From a virus, in IMG/VR virus record IMGVR_UViG_3300035156_000367, positions 1 through 24,671 of that record: a stretch of DNA of 24,671 nucleotides; one strand, 5' to 3'. The first letter of the stretch is position 1; every line of letters begins with the position of its first letter. The notes beneath the pieces were generated by a model, which worked only from the letters and a program-made list of their open reading frames with translations, was not told the DNA's origin and ran no database searches. Of this stretch, positions 3,857 to 24,270 are shown in pieces. A program made the translations under genes and the position numbers.

Positions 3857-4254
3857 TGCTGCAATCCAGCCATCATCAGCAGCTCGTCTTCCCCGACCAC
3901 CCGCTTCTGCCCGTCCGGCAGGACGAGGAGGTAGGTGAGGATACGGCGGCAAGGCTCGACGAGGACGCCGTCACGCCCCCAGAGCACTAAAGTTGCCTCG
4001 AAGGTCCGGTCCACCGCGGCCCGCGCATCGACCGAGAATAGCTCCAGCACATCCTCGCAGGTCGACAGCCCGTCCCCGTGGCGACGATCCAGCAGGCTCC
4101 ACAGGTGTCGGCAAACCCGCTTGAGCAACCACACCTGCTGCTCGGGCGGCATGTCAGACACGGTCGTAAGCGACGCGGCCGCGCGCGCGCGCGACCGCGC
4201 GAGCTCGACCGTCTCACGTCGTACCTTGGGCGCAGGACGCCGGGACTGCGTCAC
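3853..4254 (-). CDS. Hypothetical protein downstream of small terminase (133 aa)
   Basis: This 133-residue protein starts at a GTG (4254) overlapping the end of the small terminase gene, and its stop overlaps the next GTG. The N-terminus is basic (QSRRPAPKVRRETVELARSRAR), the middle is helical with MPPEQQVWLLKRVCRHLW, and the C-terminus has RILTYLLVLPDGQKRVVGEDELL. The basic start would suit nucleic-acid contact. I recognise no family. It sits in the packaging block and has no obvious Mu equivalent between gp27 and gp28. Confidence 0.65.
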   Translation of the reverse strand: MTQSRRPAPKVRRETVELARSRARAAASLTTVSDMPPEQQVWLLKRVCRHLWSLLDRRHGDGLSTCEDVLELFSVDARAAVDRTFEATLVLWGRDGVLVEPCRRILTYLLVLPDGQKRVVGEDELLMMAGLQQ

Positions 4255-6981: not shown

Positions 6982-7559
6982 GCACGCCGCCCGAAGCGCG
7001 CCTTCAGCATCTCGGTCATCCGGCCGAACCAGCCGTAGGTGAACGCCTCGTTGGCGGGCCGCGCCTCGCAGATTTCGATATAGCGGGCACCGCGAAGCGA
7101 GCGGATCGCCTCCAGCAGCCGGTCCGCGCCTTCAGCGCCCCGCCGGCCCTGAAAGAGCGCAAGGGCGCGCATCGTCGCCGCGCCGATCGCACCGTCAACG
7201 GGGACGTCCGGGTAGTGTGCACCACCCGAATTCAGCGCGTTCAGCGAGCGCTGGAGAAAGGTTGCAGCGACGCCCACGCCCATGTTGACGCCGATGTCGA
7301 ACAGCTCAGCCGCGACGTCCGGATAGTGCTGCGCGACCAGGAAGAAGCCCGGACGCTCCCAGTAGATCACCCGGTAGATCGCCCCGGCGGCGCTGCGCGG
7401 CAAGTCGCGCATGTCGCCACGGTAGCCGTTGGCGCGCGCGACCTGCTCCGTCACGCCCCAGCGGGTCGGCCCGCCTTTGTCTGCGGGGTGGTTCGAATAG
7501 CCGCCCTCGCGGCCTATGACGGCATCGATCAGCCCGTCGATGATGGTGGGAGTCGCCAT
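6978..7559 (-). CDS. Endolysin, glycoside hydrolase 108 type
   Basis: This 193-residue protein is a peptidoglycan-cleaving enzyme of the GH108 family with a C-terminal PG_binding_3-type region. The catalytic Glu is E18 in GREGGYSNHPADKGGPTRWG, a signature of the family. The C-terminal half has VPVDGAIGAATMRALALF and ends in YGWFGRMTEML. No signal peptide or SAR helix is visible, so export would depend on the holin in the next gene. The ATG at 7559 has an AAGG about 10 bases upstream. Lysis genes directly after the Mor-type activator match the Mu layout. Confidence 0.92.
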   Translation of the reverse strand: MATPTIIDGLIDAVIGREGGYSNHPADKGGPTRWGVTEQVARANGYRGDMRDLPRSAAGAIYRVIYWERPGFFLVAQHYPDVAAELFDIGVNMGVGVAATFLQRSLNALNSGGAHYPDVPVDGAIGAATMRALALFQGRRGAEGADRLLEAIRSLRGARYIEICEARPANEAFTYGWFGRMTEMLKARFGRRA

Positions 7560-7597
7560 GATTTGACGACCTTGCCGTGGGCGCGATCCCGGAAGCA

Positions 7598-7615
7598 TGC
7601 CCGCCTTGGCGGGCA
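7598..7615. promoter_or_regulatory. Perfect 8-bp-arm palindrome before the lysis genes
   Basis: TGCCCGCC and GGCGGGCA form a perfect dyad with a 2-base centre in the short gap between the mor-like gene and the endolysin. It could be a hairpin that slows transcription, or the dyad recognised by the Mor-type activator at a middle promoter, since Mor in Mu binds a dyad just upstream of its promoter. No T-run follows on the minus strand, so a classical terminator is unlikely. Confidence 0.4.
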
Positions 7616-7623
7616 AGGAACGA

Positions 7624-7980
7624 TTAGTCGCCGAATAATGAAGGCTGGCGGTCGTCGCCGCGGGCTCGGCGGCGGGCGAACAGCTTGTCGACGCCCGACT
7701 CGGTGATCCCCAGCGCCCGGGCGATCTGCGCGTTGCTCTTGCCGGCCGCGCGATAGTGTCGCGCCCGCTGCTCGCGCGCAAGCGGCACTCGAACGACGTC
7801 GGGCGCCAGCCGCTCGGACAGCCGCCGCGCCGCCTCGACCCCGATTGCTCTCGCGATATCGTGCGCGGCCGAGATCGTCACCGGCACGTACAGCCGGGTC
7901 CCGCCGAACGCCTCGGCGAGGCGGATCAGCGCGTCCTCTCCGATCAGCGCCTCCAGCTCGGGACCCGGACGGCTCGTCAC
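7624..7980 (-). CDS. Mor-type transcription activator
   Basis: This 118-residue protein fits the Mor/C activator family of Mu-like phages, which turns on middle and late promoters. The N-terminal dimerisation region has LAEAFGGTRLYVPVTI (residues about 21-37) and the C-terminal helix-turn-helix is GKSNAQIARALGITESGVDK (about 80-99). It starts at a GTG (7980) overlapping the previous stop. Located at the end of the early operon and just ahead of the lysis genes, it is placed exactly as Mor is in Mu. No second family member (C) is seen before the late genes. Confidence 0.88.
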   Translation of the reverse strand: MTSRPGPELEALIGEDALIRLAEAFGGTRLYVPVTISAAHDIARAIGVEAARRLSERLAPDVVRVPLAREQRARHYRAAGKSNAQIARALGITESGVDKLFARRRARGDDRQPSLFGD

Positions 7981-8135
7981 CGCGTCAGCGTCGCGAGCAG
8001 GAGGCCGAGGAGCAGGCCGAGCAGGAACCAGGTGCAGCGGCCTATCCGACGACGCCGCTGGCCGCCGACGATCGCGCGCTCGTCCCAGTCGGCTGGGAGG
8101 CCGGGTGCGGTGCGGGGGTGGACCTTTGCGCTCAC
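7977..8135 (-). CDS. Small C-tail membrane protein (52 aa)
   Basis: This 52-residue protein has a basic N-terminal part and one C-terminal membrane helix, CTWFLLGLLLGLLLATL, preceded by QRRRRIGR. It reads from a GTG at 8135 that overlaps the gemA stop and ends overlapping the mor start, so translation of gemA, this gene and mor is coupled. The topology is probably N-terminus in the cytoplasm. I recognise no family. Confidence 0.65.
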   Translation of the reverse strand: MSAKVHPRTAPGLPADWDERAIVGGQRRRRIGRCTWFLLGLLLGLLLATLTR

Positions 8136-8830
8136 GGCCGCTTGCCCGCCAGCACCGCGCCCAGTGAGCGCGCAACCAAGTCGAGCGTCTCCGCGCCCGC
8201 GAACAGCAGGTCGACATCGACACCTGCGAACTCGAATGCGGCCCGGGCGACCGTCCAGTCGGCAGGCGCGAGCCCAGCGTCCTGGAGCTTGACGAGCAAC
8301 GCGCCGCACAGCCGCCGCTTGAGCACGTTCGCGACGGCGACCGGCCGCAGCCCCGCGATCGACTGGTCCCAGCCGTGACGCTCGGCGATCGCCTTCAGTG
8401 CTTCGATCAGGCGGTAGACCATCGACTGGTTCGCCCACTGGAGCTTGTCGCAGCTGAGCTGGCGTCGGGCGAACGCCTCCAGCGCACGCTCGGACGGGTC
8501 ATCAATGGCGCCGAGCAGCCCAAGCGAGATCCACATCGCCCGCGCCTTGCGCGCGGCGGGGTGGTCGGCGGGCCGGGTCGCTGCGCCCTTCGCGGGCGAC
8601 CGCGCTTTCGCCGAGAAGCCGCGTGCCTCGAAGGCGCGGATCACCTTCTCCAGCTCGGACTGAGTGCAGTCGGCCGCGCTGGTGCGCCCGGTCTCTCTGA
8701 TCAGCACCGCAACGTAATCGTCGTCGCACAGCCGCAGTTGCGCCTTGGCAATGTGGACCTTGGCGAGCATCGAGCGCCGGTGCTGCTGCGACGCGTCGAA
8801 GCGGGCGGGCGCGGCACGCTGAGCGGTCAC
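8132..8830 (-). CDS. gemA: GemA/gp16-family regulator (DUF1018)
   Basis: This 232-residue protein fits the GemA/Gp16 family (DUF1018) of Mu-like phages. The hallmark is near residue 20: RRSMLAKVHIAKAQL followed by DDDYVAVLIRETGRTSA. The C-terminal part has WANQSMVYRLIEALKAIAERHGW. In Mu, GemA affects host gene expression and DNA topology during lytic growth, though the mechanism is not settled. The chosen GTG at 8830 overlaps the upstream stop; a more upstream in-frame start would run through the previous gene. Position shortly after MuB and before mor is typical. Confidence 0.88.
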   Translation of the reverse strand: MTAQRAAPARFDASQQHRRSMLAKVHIAKAQLRLCDDDYVAVLIRETGRTSAADCTQSELEKVIRAFEARGFSAKARSPAKGAATRPADHPAARKARAMWISLGLLGAIDDPSERALEAFARRQLSCDKLQWANQSMVYRLIEALKAIAERHGWDQSIAGLRPVAVANVLKRRLCGALLVKLQDAGLAPADWTVARAAFEFAGVDVDLLFAGAETLDLVARSLGAVLAGKRP

Positions 8831-9138: not shown

Positions 9139-10104
9139 TCAGGTGCGGATGTATCGGGTGGCGCGGGTGCTCTGCGCATCGCGCAGTGCGGCGAGGCTGA
9201 GCGGCTGATCGTCCTCCATCGCGAGCATCGAGGCCTGCTCGATCAGCTGCTGGCACTCGCGCAGTCCGCCCGACGCCGGGGTCAGCGCGATCCGCTTGAG
9301 CATCGCACGCATGCCGTCGTCGCGGACGTTCCAGGCATCGCAGAACGCCTCCACGTCACCCTCGACCGGCGAATGCTGGAGGTGGCGCTGCGCGATCCGG
9401 CTGTTGAGGCGGCCGAAGGCGTCGCGGCGCGAACCGCCCTCGATCCGCATCAGCAGCTCCTCGTTGCCGAGCAGGCACACGCCTGGGCCGCCCGGCATGT
9501 CGTGCCATGCGCGTATCTGCTCCAGCGCCTTCAGGTCGAGGTGATTGGCCTCGTCGATCACCAGCAACCCGCGGCGGCCGACGACGCTGTCCTTCACCAG
9601 TTGCGAGAGCTGCGCCCCCCAGCCGCCCTTGGCGGTGACGCCTAGCGAGCGCAGCACCGCCATGATCATGCTGTTGAGCCCGCCGCTCGCCTGCTCCATC
9701 GTGACGACCCAGACGTTGGACGCCGACGCCTGGTACTCGGCGATCGTCATCGTCTTGCCGGTGCCGGGCCCGGTAGCGGCGAGCGTCATGCGGCCGCGGT
9801 GCGCCCACACCAGCAGCGACATCAGGCGCCGCGAGGTCGGCGTCTCGAAATAGCCGGGCGCGTCGGGGATCCCGAGCCCGACCGCGGCCTGGCTGTCGAG
9901 CGTCTGCCGGAACTTGAAGATCAGGCGGGCGATGTTGTCGCGATTGCCCTGGTAGTGCTCACCGGCGAACCCGGAGAGCGTGCCGGCGGCGATGCCGGTG
10001 ATATCTGCAAGCCGCGACCAGCTCAGCCCTTTGGCGGACTTATGGGCGAGCAGCCAATCCCGCTGCTCCTCGGCGTCGACGGGGAAGTTCTCTGCGTTGT
10101 TCAT
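9139..10104 (-). CDS. MuB-type transposition target-capture ATPase
   Basis: This 321-residue AAA+ ATPase is the MuB partner of the transposase. It binds target DNA, stimulates MuA and directs insertion away from the phage itself. The N-terminal helix-turn-helix lies around residues 29-50 (SWSRLADITGIAAGTLSGF). Walker A is GPGTGKT (112-118) and Walker B LLVIDEA (180-186), with GVCLLGNEELLMRI (208-221) as sensor region. The ATG at 10104 has a GAGGA ribosome site a few bases upstream; the longer reading would run through the hairpin in front of the gene. Two small genes separate it from muA. Confidence 0.92.
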   Translation of the reverse strand: MNNAENFPVDAEEQRDWLLAHKSAKGLSWSRLADITGIAAGTLSGFAGEHYQGNRDNIARLIFKFRQTLDSQAAVGLGIPDAPGYFETPTSRRLMSLLVWAHRGRMTLAATGPGTGKTMTIAEYQASASNVWVVTMEQASGGLNSMIMAVLRSLGVTAKGGWGAQLSQLVKDSVVGRRGLLVIDEANHLDLKALEQIRAWHDMPGGPGVCLLGNEELLMRIEGGSRRDAFGRLNSRIAQRHLQHSPVEGDVEAFCDAWNVRDDGMRAMLKRIALTPASGGLRECQQLIEQASMLAMEDDQPLSLAALRDAQSTRATRYIRT

Positions 10105-10129
10105 GGGTGTCCTCGCTCGTTGAGAGCAG

Positions 10130-10158
10130 GTCGCGCGCGGCGCCCGGCCGCGCGCGAC
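10130..10158 (-). other. Strong hairpin upstream of the MuB gene
   Basis: A perfect 12-bp GC stem (GTCGCGCGCGGC and its complement) with a 5-base loop lies between the stop of the 80-residue gene and the MuB start. No T-run follows, so it is not a classical intrinsic terminator. It could be an attenuator, a factor-dependent stop or an mRNA stabiliser, and would let transposase and MuB be expressed at different levels. Confidence 0.5.
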
Positions 10159-10165
10159 GGGGTGA

Positions 10166-10408
10166 TCAAAGGTCGATGAATTGGACGGGCAGCTCGGCGT
10201 CATCGTTGACGTCCACGACCAGCGGCCGGAACTCCGGGTCGCCGGGCAGCTGGACCAGCGTCGCGGGCTCGCCGTCGTAATCGGCCAGGCCGAGCGCGAA
10301 CTCGTCGGCGCCGAACGGCAAGTCGCCGTCGGCCTTCGGCCGGATAATCGCGGCGCGCGAGTTGCCGTGCCGGTCGACGTAGATCGCCAGCCACCGGGAG
10401 ACGGTCAC
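10166..10408 (-). CDS. Hypothetical protein between MuA and MuB (80 aa)
   Basis: This 80-residue acidic protein starts at a GTG (10408) overlapping the previous stop. It is probably beta-rich, with RWLAIYVDRHGNSRAAII at the N-terminus and EFRPLVVDVNDDAELPVQF at the C-terminus. No domain is recognised. It is one of two small genes that separate muA from muB; in Mu itself the two are adjacent. Confidence 0.68.
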   Translation of the reverse strand: MTVSRWLAIYVDRHGNSRAAIIRPKADGDLPFGADEFALGLADYDGEPATLVQLPGDPEFRPLVVDVNDDAELPVQFIDL

Positions 10409-10631: not shown

Positions 10632-12587
10632 TCAGTCGACGACGCGCAATCGGGCGGTCGCCGCCGCGAAGCGGTCGATCACGGAGCGCTGCGCGGGATC
10701 ATGGGTGGCGACCGGCGTGACCTTCAGCGCGGCGGCGGTGTGACGGTGGCGAACCGGGCGGATCACCGCAGGTGGCGGGATCACCGCCTCGTCCTCGTGG
10801 TCCGGGATCATCGCGGCGATTGCGGCGGCGTCGAGCAGCTCGTGCGTCTCGGCGAGCTGGCGGACCAGGCGGCGCTGCTCGGCCTCCTGCGCCCGCCGCT
10901 TGCCCGCAGACGCCTTGTCGAAGAAGCCGACGGCTGCGATCGCAGGCGCGGTGCAGATGAACCCGCCCGCCCGGTCGTAGACGTGGACCTCGCCGTGGAG
11001 ATTGTCCGGGTCGAACCGCAGGGTCACCTTGGTGCCCGCGTGGCTCGCCAGTTCGGGCGCGTAGTAGCGGTTGCCCTCCAGCGTCACGACCGCGGTCTCG
11101 CGGTCACACGTCCGCTCCTCGGCGGTGAGCAGCGCGATTCGCAGCTGCTCGGGCGTGGCCCGGCCGATCGGCGCGACGGCGTAGCTCGCCGCAAACACCT
11201 GGTCGAACGAGAGCTTGCCCTGCGCGGTCTCGGTGCGCCGGTTCGGCTTGGCGTTGTGCGCCGCGATTCCTGCTGCGACGACGGCGCGGAACACATCGAT
11301 CGGCACCGCCCGGCTGCCATAATTCTCCGGCTTCGCGTCCGGCTTGTTGCCCGTGTACGCACCGGCGAGCGACGGGTGCTTGGCGATCGTGTCGCACAGG
11401 TCGCGGAACGCCCGCTCGATCGGCTTGGACTGGCCCCGATACGGCGTCGCCCAGTGTATCTGAACGCCGAGCGCGGTGAGAACGCCCGTGGGCTCCTCGT
11501 CCTTGATCTTGAACCGGAACCGCGACTTCGCGCCGCCTGTGATCATCTTGGACGCGAACGCCCGGCCGTTGTCGAGCAGGCACGCCCCCGGGATGCCCCA
11601 GTCGCGGAACAGGTCGGCGAACACCAGCCGCGTCGACAAGGCGCTCTCACTCTCGTCGATGCGGTGCGCGAGGAGCTTGCGGCTGTGCAGGTCCTGCACC
11701 GCGACCATCAGCGGTCGGCCCACGCGGCCGTCCGGCCAGCGCACGAACACGTCGAACTTGTGGCCGTCGATGTTGACAGCCTCCAATGCATGAAGCTCTG
11801 CCACCGATCTCTCCTGTGCTGGTAGGGTCCGTCTGAGCGCCTCCGCGCCCTCGCGCCGCGCGATCACCAGCCGACCGTCGACCTCGCGCTCCAGCTTGCG
11901 GCGGAGCGTCTTCTCGTGCGGCACCGCGAGCCCGCGCGGCTCGGCGTACTTGCGTACCATCCGCCAGTAGCAGGAGGTGAACGTCGGCTGTTCGAGCCGA
12001 AGGTAGTCGGACAGCAGGAACTGCCACGCGCCCGAGTCGATCGCCGCGTCCGCGCCGCCGCCTGTCCGCTTGGGGGCGAGATGCGCGAGCCGGTCCGGAC
12101 CGCGGACGCCGTCGATCAGCTCCAGCCAGCTCCACACGGTCGACGCGCCCACACCCGACTGCCCCGCGGCTGCCGCAACCGCGGCCGATCGGGTCAGGCC
12201 TGCGCGCACGTAGCCGTCGACCAGCTGCACCGCATCGAGCCGCCGCCGTGCCTCGACCTTCACCCGCTCGCTCGCCGCATCGAACCAGCGCCACAGCTGC
12301 GCCGAGCTGGTGGTCGGCTCCACGTGGACGTCCGCTACGATCGCGACACCCTTGGCCGCGATCGCCGCTCGCGTTGCTGCGGGAAGCACGTCGAGGTGGT
12401 ACTCGAGCCCGCCGCCGCGCGCCTGCCGCGGCCGGGCGAGCGGCGCGCCGTCCGGGCCGGTGCGCAGCGCCCAGCGGTCCTCGGCCGCGCGCTCGTTGAT
12501 CTTGCGCTTGGTCGTCGGCAGCGCGGGGAGCCGGAGCTCCGCAAGCTCGACCGCGGTGAACCATTCCTTGCCGCCGCCCAGCTTCAA
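10632..12587 (-). CDS. Mu-type transposase (MuA, DDE recombinase)
   Basis: This 651-residue protein is the DDE transposase that joins phage ends to target DNA for integration and replicative transposition. The N-terminal part (1-70) carries the Mu-type winged-helix region (EWFTAVELAELRLPALPTTK). A second DNA-binding domain lies at about 105-165 with GLTRSAAVAAAAG and GASTVWSWLE. The catalytic core has D274 (VNIDGHKFD), D339 (LLDNGRAFAS) and E391 (SKPIERAFRD), almost the spacing of Mu (269/336/392). The C-terminal domain (about 490-560) fits Mu-transpos_C, followed by a charged tail. The start is a TTG at 12587 overlapping the upstream stop (TTGA), which may keep levels low. Confidence 0.96.
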   Translation of the reverse strand: MKLGGGKEWFTAVELAELRLPALPTTKRKINERAAEDRWALRTGPDGAPLARPRQARGGGLEYHLDVLPAATRAAIAAKGVAIVADVHVEPTTSSAQLWRWFDAASERVKVEARRRLDAVQLVDGYVRAGLTRSAAVAAAAGQSGVGASTVWSWLELIDGVRGPDRLAHLAPKRTGGGADAAIDSGAWQFLLSDYLRLEQPTFTSCYWRMVRKYAEPRGLAVPHEKTLRRKLEREVDGRLVIARREGAEALRRTLPAQERSVAELHALEAVNIDGHKFDVFVRWPDGRVGRPLMVAVQDLHSRKLLAHRIDESESALSTRLVFADLFRDWGIPGACLLDNGRAFASKMITGGAKSRFRFKIKDEEPTGVLTALGVQIHWATPYRGQSKPIERAFRDLCDTIAKHPSLAGAYTGNKPDAKPENYGSRAVPIDVFRAVVAAGIAAHNAKPNRRTETAQGKLSFDQVFAASYAVAPIGRATPEQLRIALLTAEERTCDRETAVVTLEGNRYYAPELASHAGTKVTLRFDPDNLHGEVHVYDRAGGFICTAPAIAAVGFFDKASAGKRRAQEAEQRRLVRQLAETHELLDAAAIAAMIPDHEDEAVIPPPAVIRPVRHRHTAAALKVTPVATHDPAQRSVIDRFAAATARLRVVD

Positions 12588-16262: not shown

Positions 16263-16315
16263 AGCGAAACTCCACACAGCCAAAGCAGCGTGTCGTCGTT
16301 CTCGGGCGGCATCAT
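16259..16315 (-). CDS. Micro-ORF linking two early genes (18 aa)
   Basis: An 18-codon ORF with tandem ATGs at 16315/16312 overlaps the parB-like stop and ends in ATGA overlap with the next gene. It encodes MMPPENDDTLLWLCGVSL. Exact coupling on both sides suggests that it is translated, perhaps as a relay for ribosomes across the gap. Chance cannot be excluded for so short a frame. Confidence 0.35.
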   Translation of the reverse strand: MMPPENDDTLLWLCGVSL

Positions 16316-17736
16316 GCGGCCGCTGCCTTGGCTTCATTGAGCCGCACCCATGCCTTGGTCATCCAGGCGCGAAGCAGCCCGATCCCGCCTGCGGTGCAGG
16401 TCGCCGCGATCTTGCCCAGCTTCAGCTCGTAGGTGCCGTTCTGGAAGCGCGCCTGACCGCCGTGTCGGCGGACCAGCTCGTTGATGATCCAGTCCGGGTC
16501 GCCGTCCTGGCCGAGCTGCTCGGCGATGAAGCCGGTGGCCGAACGCAGAAGGTCGTTGTCCGCGAGATCAGCGCTTAGCGGTGCCGCAGCATCGCCTGCC
16601 AATACTCCCGATCCGCCCGCCACCGCCGCAGCGTCGAGGCGCTGATCTTCGCCTTCCCTGACACGATCGCGACTGCTGCTGACCGCGTCCAGCCCGCTTG
16701 TTCTAACCGCCGGACCATGTCGAGCCACGCCAGCCGCATCGCGATGTCCGTGCGCCGGCATAGTTTCGGCCGCATCCGCCGTTTCCTGGTTGATGTTCGG
16801 GTCACGCCGCATCGGGGCAAGCAGGACGCGCGCTTCGGCGGGGGCTAGGTCGTGAAACTGAGGTGACTGGAAAAGGGCCGCGAGCTCCCCCGCGTCCATC
16901 CGACTGAGGACGTCGAGGACGCTGCGGAACCTCTTATCCTTGAGGTTGAGCGGTTTTTTGGCGTCGCTGCCTTGCGCCACCGCCTGCGCTACCGACGTGA
17001 TCGTGCGCCCGTTAACCAGCTTGCCGCACAGCGTCGCGACGACCGCGACCTGCTGGACCGGCTCCAGCTTGGCAAGCGCACGAAGCTGGCTTGCGTTGGA
17101 GAGTACCGGATGCCGAGCACTGCGCAGCCGCTCCACGATGGAGGCGGGCAGGCGACGGTAGAGCATCAGGTCGCGCTCGATCGTGCGCTTGTTCAGCCCG
17201 ATCTGCTCGCCGACTGTGTCGCTCCAGCCGTATACACGCGACATCGTGTCGTTTGTATCAGCCGCCTCGTCAGCAACCTGCTTCTGCCAGCGCGCAGCGA
17301 CCGAGGCGACGCGCCCGTCACGTTCCGGATCGATCCCGGCCCGGCGCTTGTAGATCGCGACCGCCTCCGCAATGAACGCTGCGCGATCGATCGGCATCAG
17401 GTCCGACCGCCACAGGTTCTCGCGCACCTCACGCAGCCGCCGCGCGTCGCGATCGGCGCTGACAACCTCGGCGCGTAGATGTTCGATGCCGACCTCGCGG
17501 GCACCGGCTAGACGGTGAGCACCAGCGACCAAGGTCCACCGATTGCGGCCGGGCAGGCGGCACACCTGGACAGGCGTATCCTGCCCGTCGCGCGCCATCA
17601 TCTGCCCCAGCGCTTTCGCCCAGACCGGATCGACCGGCCGCAGCCGCTCGCCCTCGTCCACCTCGTCCGTGCGGATCAGGATGAAATCGGGCAGCGTCTC
17701 CTGGTGCAGCCCTGCGCCCAGCGTCTCGCCGGTCAT
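16312..17736 (-). CDS. ParB-like N-terminal domain protein
   Basis: This 474-residue ORF starts with a ParB/Srx-like domain. Residues about 17-110 include TPVQVCRLPGRNRWTLVAGA, HRLAGAREVG and VRENLWRSDLMPIDRA, equivalent to the ParB box I and II motifs. A helix-turn-helix follows at about 170-192 (GWSDTVGEQIGLNKRTIERD). Residues about 321-388 are low-complexity and have poor codon bias, because a second frame there appears to be the coding one. The last 80 residues (TGFIAEQLGQDGDPDWIINE onward) look like a real small domain. ParB-like proteins are common in alphaproteobacterial Mu-like early operons; the role here could be DNA binding or nuclease. Confidence 0.78.
   Translation of the reverse strand: MTGETLGAGLHQETLPDFILIRTDEVDEGERLRPVDPVWAKALGQMMARDGQDTPVQVCRLPGRNRWTLVAGAHRLAGAREVGIEHLRAEVVSADRDARRLREVRENLWRSDLMPIDRAAFIAEAVAIYKRRAGIDPERDGRVASVAARWQKQVADEAADTNDTMSRVYGWSDTVGEQIGLNKRTIERDLMLYRRLPASIVERLRSARHPVLSNASQLRALAKLEPVQQVAVVATLCGKLVNGRTITSVAQAVAQGSDAKKPLNLKDKRFRSVLDVLSRMDAGELAALFQSPQFHDLAPAEARVLLAPMRRDPNINQETADAAETMPAHGHRDAAGVARHGPAVRTSGLDAVSSSRDRVREGEDQRLDAAAVAGGSGVLAGDAAAPLSADLADNDLLRSATGFIAEQLGQDGDPDWIINELVRRHGGQARFQNGTYELKLGKIAATCTAGGIGLLRAWMTKAWVRLNEAKAAAA
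16575..16775 (-). CDS. Nested MuA-like DNA-binding helix-turn-helix protein (66 aa)
   Basis: Inside the parB-like ORF, in another frame, a 66-residue protein runs from an ATG at 16775 (AGGA about 8 bases upstream) to a TAA. Its core, LEQAGWTRSAAVAIVSGKAK then ISASTLRRWRADREYW, lines up with residues 127-156 of the MuA in this window (RAGLTRSAAVAAAAG, GASTVWSWLE). By hand, 45 of the last 54 codons end in G or C, against about 31 of 54 in the overlapping frame. This suggests a free-standing end-binding type domain or a shifted part of the parB-like gene. Confidence 0.55.
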   Translation of the reverse strand: MRPKLCRRTDIAMRLAWLDMVRRLEQAGWTRSAAVAIVSGKAKISASTLRRWRADREYWQAMLRHR

Positions 17737-19984: not shown

Positions 19985-20114
19985 GGTCCCACTTAGATCG
20001 GGCCCGCGAAACGTTCGTCGCCTCGCGAGAGCCGGAAAAAGCTAGCATTCTCAACCACAACCCACTTCTTTTCACCCGTGGGTTAAGTGGGACCTTCAGG
20101 GGCCCACTTAATCA
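19985..20114. repeat. Putative prophage left end with four transposase-binding-like sites
   Basis: Four similar sites occur in 130 bases: GGTCCCACTTAG (19985-19996), ACCCACTTCT (20060-20069), the inverted TTAAGTGGGACC (20083-20094), and GGGCCCACTTAA (20100-20111). Multiple sites in mixed orientation are what Mu attL shows for MuA. The outermost copy is followed by TCA at 20112-20114, so a phage end of 5'-TGATTAAGTGGG read inward would obey the TG...CA rule. This predicts a boundary at about 20114. The last two copies could also pair as a hairpin and end the repressor transcript. Confidence 0.5.
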
Positions 20115-21030: not shown

Positions 21031-22133
21031 GCGGCGCGGCCGGTGACGACGACGCGCTGCTCGGCCGAATCGCGCTGCTGCCCGACCGGGAGAAGCAGGT
21101 TGTGCTCGGCGCGCTCGATGGTGCGAGACGGCGCGAGTTCGACCAGCGCTGGGGAGTCTGGGCGCACGGGGCGCAACGGGAGCCCCCGGGCGACTGGCGG
21201 GTGTGGCTGATCCGCGCGGGGCGCGGATACGGCAAGACGCGCGGCGGAGCGGAATGGGTGTCGCAGTTCGCGCGAGATCACGCGGATGCGCGGATCGCGC
21301 TGGTCGGCAACACCGCGGAGGACGTGGCCAAGGTGATGGTGGAGGGCGCGAGCGGGTTGATCGCGGTGGCGCGCGTGGGGGAGCAGGTACGCTGGTCGCG
21401 GATGCGCGGCGAGGTTCGCTTCGAGTCGGGCGCGAGGGCATTCGTCTACTCGGCCAAGGCGCCGGAGGGACTGCGCGGACCCGAGCATCATGCGGCCTGG
21501 TGCGACGAGCTGGCGAAATGGCGAGGCGGAAGCCGGGGCGGCGATGCCGCCTGGGACAATCTGCTGATGGGGCTTCGCGCCGGCGAGCGGCCCCGCGCCG
21601 TGGTGACGACGACGCCGAGGCCCACCGCGCTGATGCGCCGGGTCATGGCGATGAGGGGGGTCCATCAGACCGTCGGCGCGACACGCGACAACCCGCACCT
21701 GCCCGAGACCTTCGTGACCGACATGGAGGACCAGTATGGCGGCACCCGGCTGGGGCGGCAGGAGCTCGACGGCGAGATGATCGACGATGTGGCGGGCGCG
21801 CTGTGGAAGCGCGCGACGATCGAGGCGTCCCGGTGCGACAAGGCGTTCGAGCGCAAGCGGCTGGTGATCGGGGTCGATCCCCCGGCGAGTTCGGGAGGAG
21901 ACGCCTGCGGGATCGTGGCGGCGGCGGTCGACGGGGACGGCATGGTGCACGTGCTCGACGACGCAAGCGTGCGCGGGGTCTCGCCGGAAGGATGGGCGGA
22001 GGTGGTGCACCTGCGCACCTTTAATCCCGTCGACGACCATTTCTTTTGGAGCAAGGAGCAAAGGCATGGAGAATATCGATACGGCGGCGGTGATGCGGCC
22101 GGTGCTGGCGGGGGCTTCGGCCCCCAGCAATAG
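21027..22133 (+). pseudogene. GTA-type large terminase, C-terminally truncated
   Basis: The frame gives 368 residues, but only the first 329 or so match a GTA large terminase. Walker A is AGRGYGKT (64-71), Walker B ends in CDELAKW (D160, E161), the coupling motif is AVVTTTPRPT (191-200), and the first nuclease Asp is D284 in VIGVDPPASSGGD. After EGWAEVVHL, near 22014, the sequence becomes LRTFNPVDDHFFWSKEQRHG and a Gly-rich tail that is simply the leader and start of the capsid gene read in another frame. About 100 residues of the nuclease domain are missing, so the product should not package DNA. Confidence 0.85.
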
Positions 22134-24270
22134 GTTCGGGGCGTTCGTGCGGTCCGGCGCGACCGTCGAGATGAAGGCGTTCACCGGGGTGACCGGGGAT
22201 GCGGGCGGCTATGCGGTGCCGCGCGAGATCGACCGGGAGATCGACGCGGTGCTGAAGAGCGCCTCGCCGATCCGGTCGATCGCCAACGTGGTGACGGTGG
22301 GCAGCGCGGGGTATCGCAAGCTGATCACGACGGGCGGCACGCCGTCGGGCTGGGCGGTGGAGACCGGACCGAGGCCGGAGACCGCCTCTCCGGTGTTCAC
22401 CGAACTGGCGCCGCCGATGGGCGAGCTCTACGCCAATCCGGCGGCGAGCCAGGCGATGCTCGACGATGCGGCGTTCGATGTCGAGGAATGGCTGGCGGGG
22501 GAGATCGCCAACGAGTTCGCCAAGGCGGAAGGGGCGGCGTTCGTCTCCGGTTCCGGGGTGAACCGGCCGAAGGGTTTCCTGACCTCCGCCGTCGCGGCAG
22601 CCGGGGATGCGACGCGGACCGCGATCGGCGGGCCGCTGGGCGGGGCGGTGGGCGCGCTGCTCGGGCGGGGAGTCGACCGGGCGGTGCTCGGCGGGCGGAG
22701 GCAGGGACCGCGGCTGACCGAGCTGAAGGTGCAGACCTCGTCCTACGGGACGCAGATCCCCAGGCTGTTCGGGACGATGCGGGTCGCAGGCACGGTGATC
22801 TGGGCGACCGACCTCACCGAGACGCGGAGCACCAGCGGCGGCAAGGGGCGGCCCAGGGTGACGAACTATGCCTATGCGGCGAACGTCGCGGTGGCGTTGT
22901 CGGCGCGCCCGGTCCTTGGCATCCGGCGGATCTGGGCAGATGGCAAGCTGCTGCGCGGGGCGGCGGGCGACTGGAAGGTGCGGACCGGCTTCCGGCTGCA
23001 CCTGGGCGGCGAGAACCAGCCCGTCGATCCGCTCCTTGCGTCGGTGGAAGGCGCGATGGCGCCCGCGCACCGCGGCGTGGCCTATGCGGTGTTCGAGGGG
23101 CTGGAACTGGCGGAATACGGCAACCGCATCCCGTCGCTGAGCTTCGAGGTGGTCGCCGACGACGGGCCGGTGGCGAGCGGCGCGGTCGTGCGCGCGCTGA
23201 CGGGTGAGGTCGCGGCGGCGGACGCGGGGCTTGCGCTCGGCGGGTTTGCGGCGGCGGGCGGAAGCGTGCGCGCGGTGCTGGAGACACTGGCGGAGGCGAG
23301 CGGGGCGTGGTTCGCGGGAGAGGGCGAGGGACTGGCGTTCCGGACCGGGGGCGCGGCGCAGACGGTGGCGGACCGGGGGCGCGCGACGCGGGCGATCGCG
23401 GGAGCGGGCGTCGTGCCGGGAGCGGTCTCGGTCGCGCATTATGACGCGGCGCGCGACTATCAGGCGGGACTGCAGCGGGCGCGGGCGCCTGGAGGGGGCG
23501 TGCGCGAGGAGCGGGTGGAGGTGGCGGCGGTTCTGGATGCGCCCGCCGCCAAGGCGGTGGCGGAGGCGGTGCTGCTGCGGCGCGAGGCGGAGCGGGTGCG
23601 GCGGACGGTGACGGCGGGGCTGGACGCGCTCGCCATCGCGCCGGGCGCGGTCGTGGCGATCGCGGGCGAGACGGGGGTGTGGCGGGTGGCGAAGGCGTCG
23701 CTGGAGGGCATGGCGGTAGTCCTGGAGCTGTTGCCGCTGGTGCGCGCGCCGGAGATCGCGGGGGCGAGCGGCGGGCGGGTGCTGGCGCAGGACGATGCGG
23801 TCGCGGGACGGACGCTGGTGGCGGCGTTCGAGGCCCCTGCGCTCGGCGATGTGGCGCTCGGCGCCCCCGTGCTCCTGGTCGCGGCGGCGGGCGAGGGGGC
23901 GGGCTGGCGGCGCGCGGACCTGCTGCTGAGCACCGACGGGGGAGCGAGCTGGGACGAGGCCGGGTCGACGGCGGCGCCTGCGGTGATGGGGGTGATCGAG
24001 GTTGCGCCGGACAAGGAAGCGCGACGCTTGCGGACATGCGCAATGCGATGGTGGTGCGGCTGGCGCATGAGGGTATGGCGTTGCTCGACGCCGACGACGC
24101 GAGCCTCGACCGCGGCGCGAACCTGGCGATCGCCGGCGACGAGCTGGTCCAGTTCGGGCGCGCCGAGCCGCTGGGCGCGAACCGCTGGCGCGTGTCGCGG
24201 CTGCTCCGCGGACGGCGCGGCACCGAATGGGCGATGGGCGCGCAAGGCCCGGACGACCGCTTCGTGGTGA
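22066..24270 (+). pseudogene. Chimeric frame: capsid N-terminus fused to gp15-like tail protein
   Basis: This 734-codon frame starts as an HK97-type major capsid protein with its own AAGGAG ribosome site. Residues 36-172 have MKAFTGVTGDAGGYAVPREI and SGSGVNRPKGFLT. Then it switches without a stop, near nt 22585, to the start of a GTA gp15-like tail/host-specificity protein: IGGPLGGAVGALLGRGVDRA, TSSYGTQIPRLFGTMRVAGT, GNRIPSLSFEVVADDG. The second half of the capsid and all genes between capsid and gp15 are absent. Beyond about 24010 the frame is nonsense, because the gp15 reading continues in another frame. No TIM-barrel domain is seen. Confidence 0.85.

Follow-up and report, generated by a model that had tools for sequence, protein, structure and literature searches.

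Can a single stretch of phage DNA encode a ParB-like protein in one frame and a transposase-type DNA-binding domain in another? The question is raised by a window of 24,671 nucleotides (IMG/VR record IMGVR_UViG_3300035156_000367, the whole stretch that was analysed), in which a sequence-only reading had noticed MuA-like residues in a second frame inside a parB-like gene. It had offered two explanations: a true overlapping gene that provides a stand-alone transposon-end or enhancer binding domain, or a single gene remodelled by two frameshifts. The two frames exist as claimed. The outer one spans 16312-17736 on the minus strand, with 474 codons and 0 internal stops; the inner one is listed at 16575-16820 of the same strand. 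Judging from sequence comparisons and a structural model, we consider it likely that they overlap as a pair of same-strand genes in the early operon, that the nested HTH gene is real and probably came to be overlapped by loss of a stop codon, and that its product is a DNA-binding accessory protein or regulator.

The prophage and its parB-like gene

The window contains part of a Mu-like prophage, the early operon of which is read leftwards from about 18430. The same prophage encodes a MuA transposase at 10632..12587 on the minus strand (Pfam DDE_2 3.5e-56, HTH_Tnp_Mu_2 7e-24; match to 4fcy 3e-98) and a MuB-like ATPase at 9139-10203. The I-beta subdomain of this MuA comprises residues 97-172 (about 12072-12299) and aligns with 2ezk (0.0098). 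At the prophage end, between the prophage and a GTA-like cluster, three exact copies of GGKCCCACTTA occur within 126 bp (19985..20110), 0.36 being expected with 1 mismatch allowed. Another contig, L009, has two copies at 3880-4006 with the same spacing of ~115 bp as in the window. These copies are candidate MuA sites and could be bound by MuA or by the nested HTH. A separate observation concerns 22066-24270, where an HK97-type (GTA-like) capsid protein shares a single open reading frame with the first part of the GTA 'megatron' baseplate protein; we take this as a sign either that the GTA cluster has suffered a deletion or that the assembly has joined two pieces.

The outer frame consists of three parts. 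Residues 18-286 match the ParB-like family PHROG 3264 (E 9e-35) and also TIGR00180 (E 1e-9, which is under the cut-off of that model). Alignment with the parB relatives of two other viral contigs, L003 and L008, delimits a conserved ParB part, residues 1-311 (16804..17736, minus strand), which ends in FQSPQFHDLxPAEARxLLAPMxR. The stretch over the nested gene, residues 312-388 (16573..16803, minus strand), is unconserved and predicted to be unstructured; in a generally weak model, residues 309-398 do not reach a pLDDT of 50. What follows is a C-terminal 'IAATC' segment of about 85 amino acids (16312..16572, minus strand). It is a gene of its own in L003 and L009 and is fused in frame to ParB in L004, which bears out the earlier impression that the last ~80 residues of the outer frame are real.

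Similar ParB-like early proteins (PHROG 3264) are found in the alphaproteobacterial Mu-like phages RcapMu, RR1-B and ThpS-P1. They resemble the window's protein in the ParB part, and their genes likewise lie between repressor/ner-type genes and the transposase. They differ in what comes next: the gene after parB encodes another protein or MuA, and a nested HTH is not annotated.

The nested reading frame

The nested gene most likely extends from an ATG at 16775 to a TAA at 16577-16575 (16575..16775, minus strand) and encodes 66 amino acids in the +1 frame relative to parB, a stand-alone HTH of the MuA I-beta type. The extent of the open frame, 16575-16820, was correctly listed, but its likely start is the ATG rather than the TTG at 16820, because a Shine-Dalgarno-like AGGAA (16783..16787, minus strand) precedes the ATG by 7 nt and because this ATG is aligned with those of two homologues. 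The match is modest: its duplex energy is -5.3 kcal/mol versus -10.0 for parB, and the nested HTH of L008 reaches -3.3. Given these weak Shine-Dalgarno matches and no parB stop close by, the HTH would be expected to be expressed at a low level by internal initiation.

The composition of the overlap agrees with a coding nested frame. The hand count of third-base GC in the sequence-only reading (45 of 54 codons against 31 of 54) is confirmed by a GC3 over the HTH of 0.83 in the nested and 0.58 in the outer frame. Near 16840 the nested frame takes over the bias, and near 16600 the outer frame regains it. Also the claimed MuA-like residues are there: TRSAAVA is identical in the window's MuA, and SASTLRRW aligns with GASTVWSW of MuA.

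A profile of I-beta was built from 36 MuA segments of other phages, the nested sequences being left out. Among 21,536 six-frame open reading frames the nested one scored 39.6 bits (E 6e-10), and within the window it ranked second, behind MuA itself. The nested HTHs of L008 and L003 were found in the same scan with E 3e-4 and E 0.0065, respectively. When the outer-frame codons were synonymously redrawn or permuted (n=4,000), the nested frame never scored better than 25.6 bits. The best PHROG match of the nested protein is a transposase family (phrog_310, E 0.008), while the Pfam Mu domains yielded no match on the 66 amino acids. By sequence and model, the nested frame looks like a gene rather than a chance pattern.

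Fold and family

An AlphaFold model of the nested HTH has a pLDDT of 89.6. Among the PDB chains compared with it, the top one is 2ezk, the I-beta subdomain of Mu (66/66 residues, Z 7.6), and the Mu transpososome 4fcy ranks third. The Z scores are middling, with an unrelated helical chain within 1 of the best, yet the match to 2ezk agrees with the sequence evidence. A search of the PDB sequences with a profile of the nested HTH found nothing at E 10; the structural link thus rests on the model and on the alignment with MuA.

The nested protein accordingly matches I-beta of Mu MuA (2ezk/2ezl; contained in 4fcy) in profile and helix order and, in the model, in fold, its 66 residues being aligned with Mu 97-168. 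In contrast to MuA, it is a stand-alone domain without the I-gamma, DDE and C-terminal domains of the transposase. MuA recognises the transposon ends through I-beta and I-gamma, and the enhancer through I-alpha (PMC3362531). Of the "transposon-end or enhancer binding domain" originally proposed, only the first half therefore stands: the MuA residues that had been used for comparison, 127-156, lie within I-beta, not within I-alpha.

Nested homologues in related phages

The comparison with related prophages that the sequence-only reading had called for shows that the arrangement recurs. In the contigs L003 and L008, parB is 54% and 46% identical to the window's and its frame likewise stays open through an HTH in the same +1 frame. 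Their HTHs are 36% and 46% identical to that of the window and 49% to each other, and the start ATGs fall into the same alignment column. These homologues and the profile match speak for a true overlapping gene. In L003 the outer frame continues into the half of a MucR protein (ROS_MUCR, E 5e-22), a possible GTG start of which overlaps the HTH stop.

Across the overlap the two frames are not equally conserved. The z scores are 8.8-13.1 for the HTH frame, 3.5-5.8 for the outer parB frame and 4.7-6.1 for the dead third frame, so that the outer frame shows no similarity beyond that of the dead one. GC3 of the HTH frame is 0.79-0.86 in the window, L003 and L008. Substitutions between the window and L003 are evenly spread over the codon positions of the HTH frame (29, 31 and 30), without enrichment at the third. 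With 3 phages, the nested set is too small and too diverged for a two-frame dN/dS test. Openness of the outer frame was considered as proof of selection and rejected: by chance alone it would remain open across the HTH with a probability of about 0.52, 0.40 and 0.40 in the three phages, ~8% jointly.

Origin of the overlap

A MuA I-beta domain also occurs as a free gene next to parB. In L024 (2791-3090) and L030 (2476-2742) the start of such a gene sits at the parB stop codon and is likewise in the +1 frame. There, parB ends in ...LGDA-stop, and the ATG of the HTH gene lies inside GGCGATGC(G/T)TGA; both genes are preceded by a strong Shine-Dalgarno sequence. The free and the nested HTHs share 21-29% identity, which is weak, so that their common descent is only inferred.

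ParB proteins that run on into a neighbour are seen elsewhere, too. In L126 (G1121), LGDA-stop became LGDAPVTPP..., and ParB continues in frame into half of a MucR protein (ROS_MUCR E 5e-19). In L004 it is joined in frame to the same IAATC segment as in the window. Both fusions are free of any HTH, and both apparently arose by loss of the parB stop, to which this ParB seems to be prone. The ParB of L067 ends like that of the window (LLAPMRR), its stop follows nine residues after RR, and an HTH is not found there. L067 contributes a side observation: upstream of its intact MuA, an open reading frame of 304 codons (7512-8423) comprises I-beta and, next to it, similarity to MuA as far as the catalytic domain, which itself is absent. 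It would represent another type of free-standing MuA DNA-binding protein.

From these comparisons, the overlap probably arose by loss of the parB stop beside an older downstream HTH gene. The HTH gene would formerly have been an ordinary neighbour of parB; once the stop was lost, parB would read over it and, in the window, also on into the next gene. The overlying parB tail would then probably be young sequence and the nested gene old. Same-strand overlaps created by 3'-elongation are known (PMC3887535), and there as here an upstream gene is extended over a downstream one by loss of its stop codon. Here, however, the downstream gene is fully nested and the elongated gene enters a third one. 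The regulatory part of the Mu-type transposable phage Fc02 also contains same-strand overlapping reading frames, olg1 and olg2 (PMC9936078), but they encode other proteins (superinfection exclusion; unknown) and lie in another place.

Three other explanations have to be weighed. That two frameshifts or sequencing errors split one continuous gene would explain why the GC bias changes frame twice within one open frame. This second option of the sequence-only reading is hardly credible, and we reject it, since two independent contigs share the same-frame nested arrangement and since the HTH is an ordinary gene downstream of parB in L024 and L030; in L003, moreover, what comes next is another gene, the MucR half. 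Nor did the sequences searched contain any relative that has ParB, the HTH and the C-terminal segment joined in a continuous frame.

Alternatively, programmed +1 frameshifting could append the HTH to the C-terminus of ParB as a further domain. Every nested case has the HTH in the +1 frame, and no parB stop precedes it. Yet the start ATGs are aligned across the three phages, the HTH is a separate gene behind the parB stop in L024 and L030, and the three upstream sequences are dissimilar, with no common slip site apparent by eye. Such a ParB-HTH fusion is very improbable.

The third explanation concedes a real HTH gene and regards the outer frame over the overlap as functionless, kept open by accident of a GC-rich sequence, its tail just being tolerated. 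The joint chance of openness and a conservation not above that of the dead frame speak for it. Against it, parB has no stop before or within the overlap, so that ribosomes translating it must read across the nested gene, and the HTH-less fusions of L004 (C-terminal segment) and L126 (MucR half) indicate that a run-on ParB may be useful. This explanation deserves to be taken seriously, although we incline somewhat against it.

Function of the nested HTH

Most likely, the HTH is initiated internally at its own ATG and acts as a small DNA-binding accessory protein or regulator in the early region of the phage. Its target is probably not identical to that of MuA, because the recognition helix differs. 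The MuA-type motif T-x-W-x-W is absent; all three nested HTHs have T-x-R-R-W-R instead. The first of these arginines replaces a tryptophan that is present in 32 of 37 MuAs (one of the 37 has R), hence common but not universal among them, and that the free HTHs of L024 and L030 retain. The next column, R in the nested HTHs, is mostly N or S in the MuAs. Nor is any nested HTH closest to the MuA of its own phage, which ranks 18th, 36th and 4th of 37 by identity. These differences favour a regulator or accessory protein with a target of its own.

They equally weaken the idea of a transposition inhibitor, that is, a piece of MuA that lacks the catalytic domain, binds to the phage ends and competes there with MuA, so as to limit transposition. 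The idea is not far-fetched: I-beta is a subdomain by which MuA binds the Mu ends, L067 has a larger free fragment of I-beta plus an I-gamma-like part that equally lacks the catalytic domain, and candidate end sites are present in the window. MuA, however, reads the ends with I-beta and I-gamma, whereas the nested HTH lacks the latter. We rate an inhibitor as rather unlikely; among the more specific forms of the regulator reading, competition with MuA at the ends comes first, possible but not favoured. A more ambitious version, in which two frames of one stretch yield a ParB fusion and a free end-binding domain that tunes MuA at the ends, and thereby couple a ParB-type protein to transposition control, appears improbable.

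Distribution

The arrangement is rare among the sequences searched: the viral contigs, phages, plasmids and genome samples contained no further nested case. In a phage collection, the sole match of the nested HTH (E 1) lies within the MuA of Thiobacimonas phage ThpS-P1. The sole match of the L030 HTH (E 2e-4) is located in the same MuA, directly after parB, and is not a free gene either. Plasmids yielded two distant parB matches and no HTH; the negative obtained there with the core of the L030 HTH is weak, since a few other residues preceded that core in the query. Of 397 genomes from the probable host family and order, 8 contain parB relatives, none with the HTH, and the HTH profile had no match in 186 genomes of the likely host group, in a scan without positive control.

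Implications

Mu-like phages can encode the end-binding domain of a transposase as a predicted free-standing protein. Three phages have it within parB, two immediately behind parB and one at another place. Such free-standing domains are clear candidates for the control of transposition or of early transcription. Gene callers overlook small nested genes of this kind if a longer open reading frame lies over them. The nested case offers a traceable route to a long overlap, in which the overlying frame would be the young one and the nested frame the old one, the reverse of what is usually assumed.
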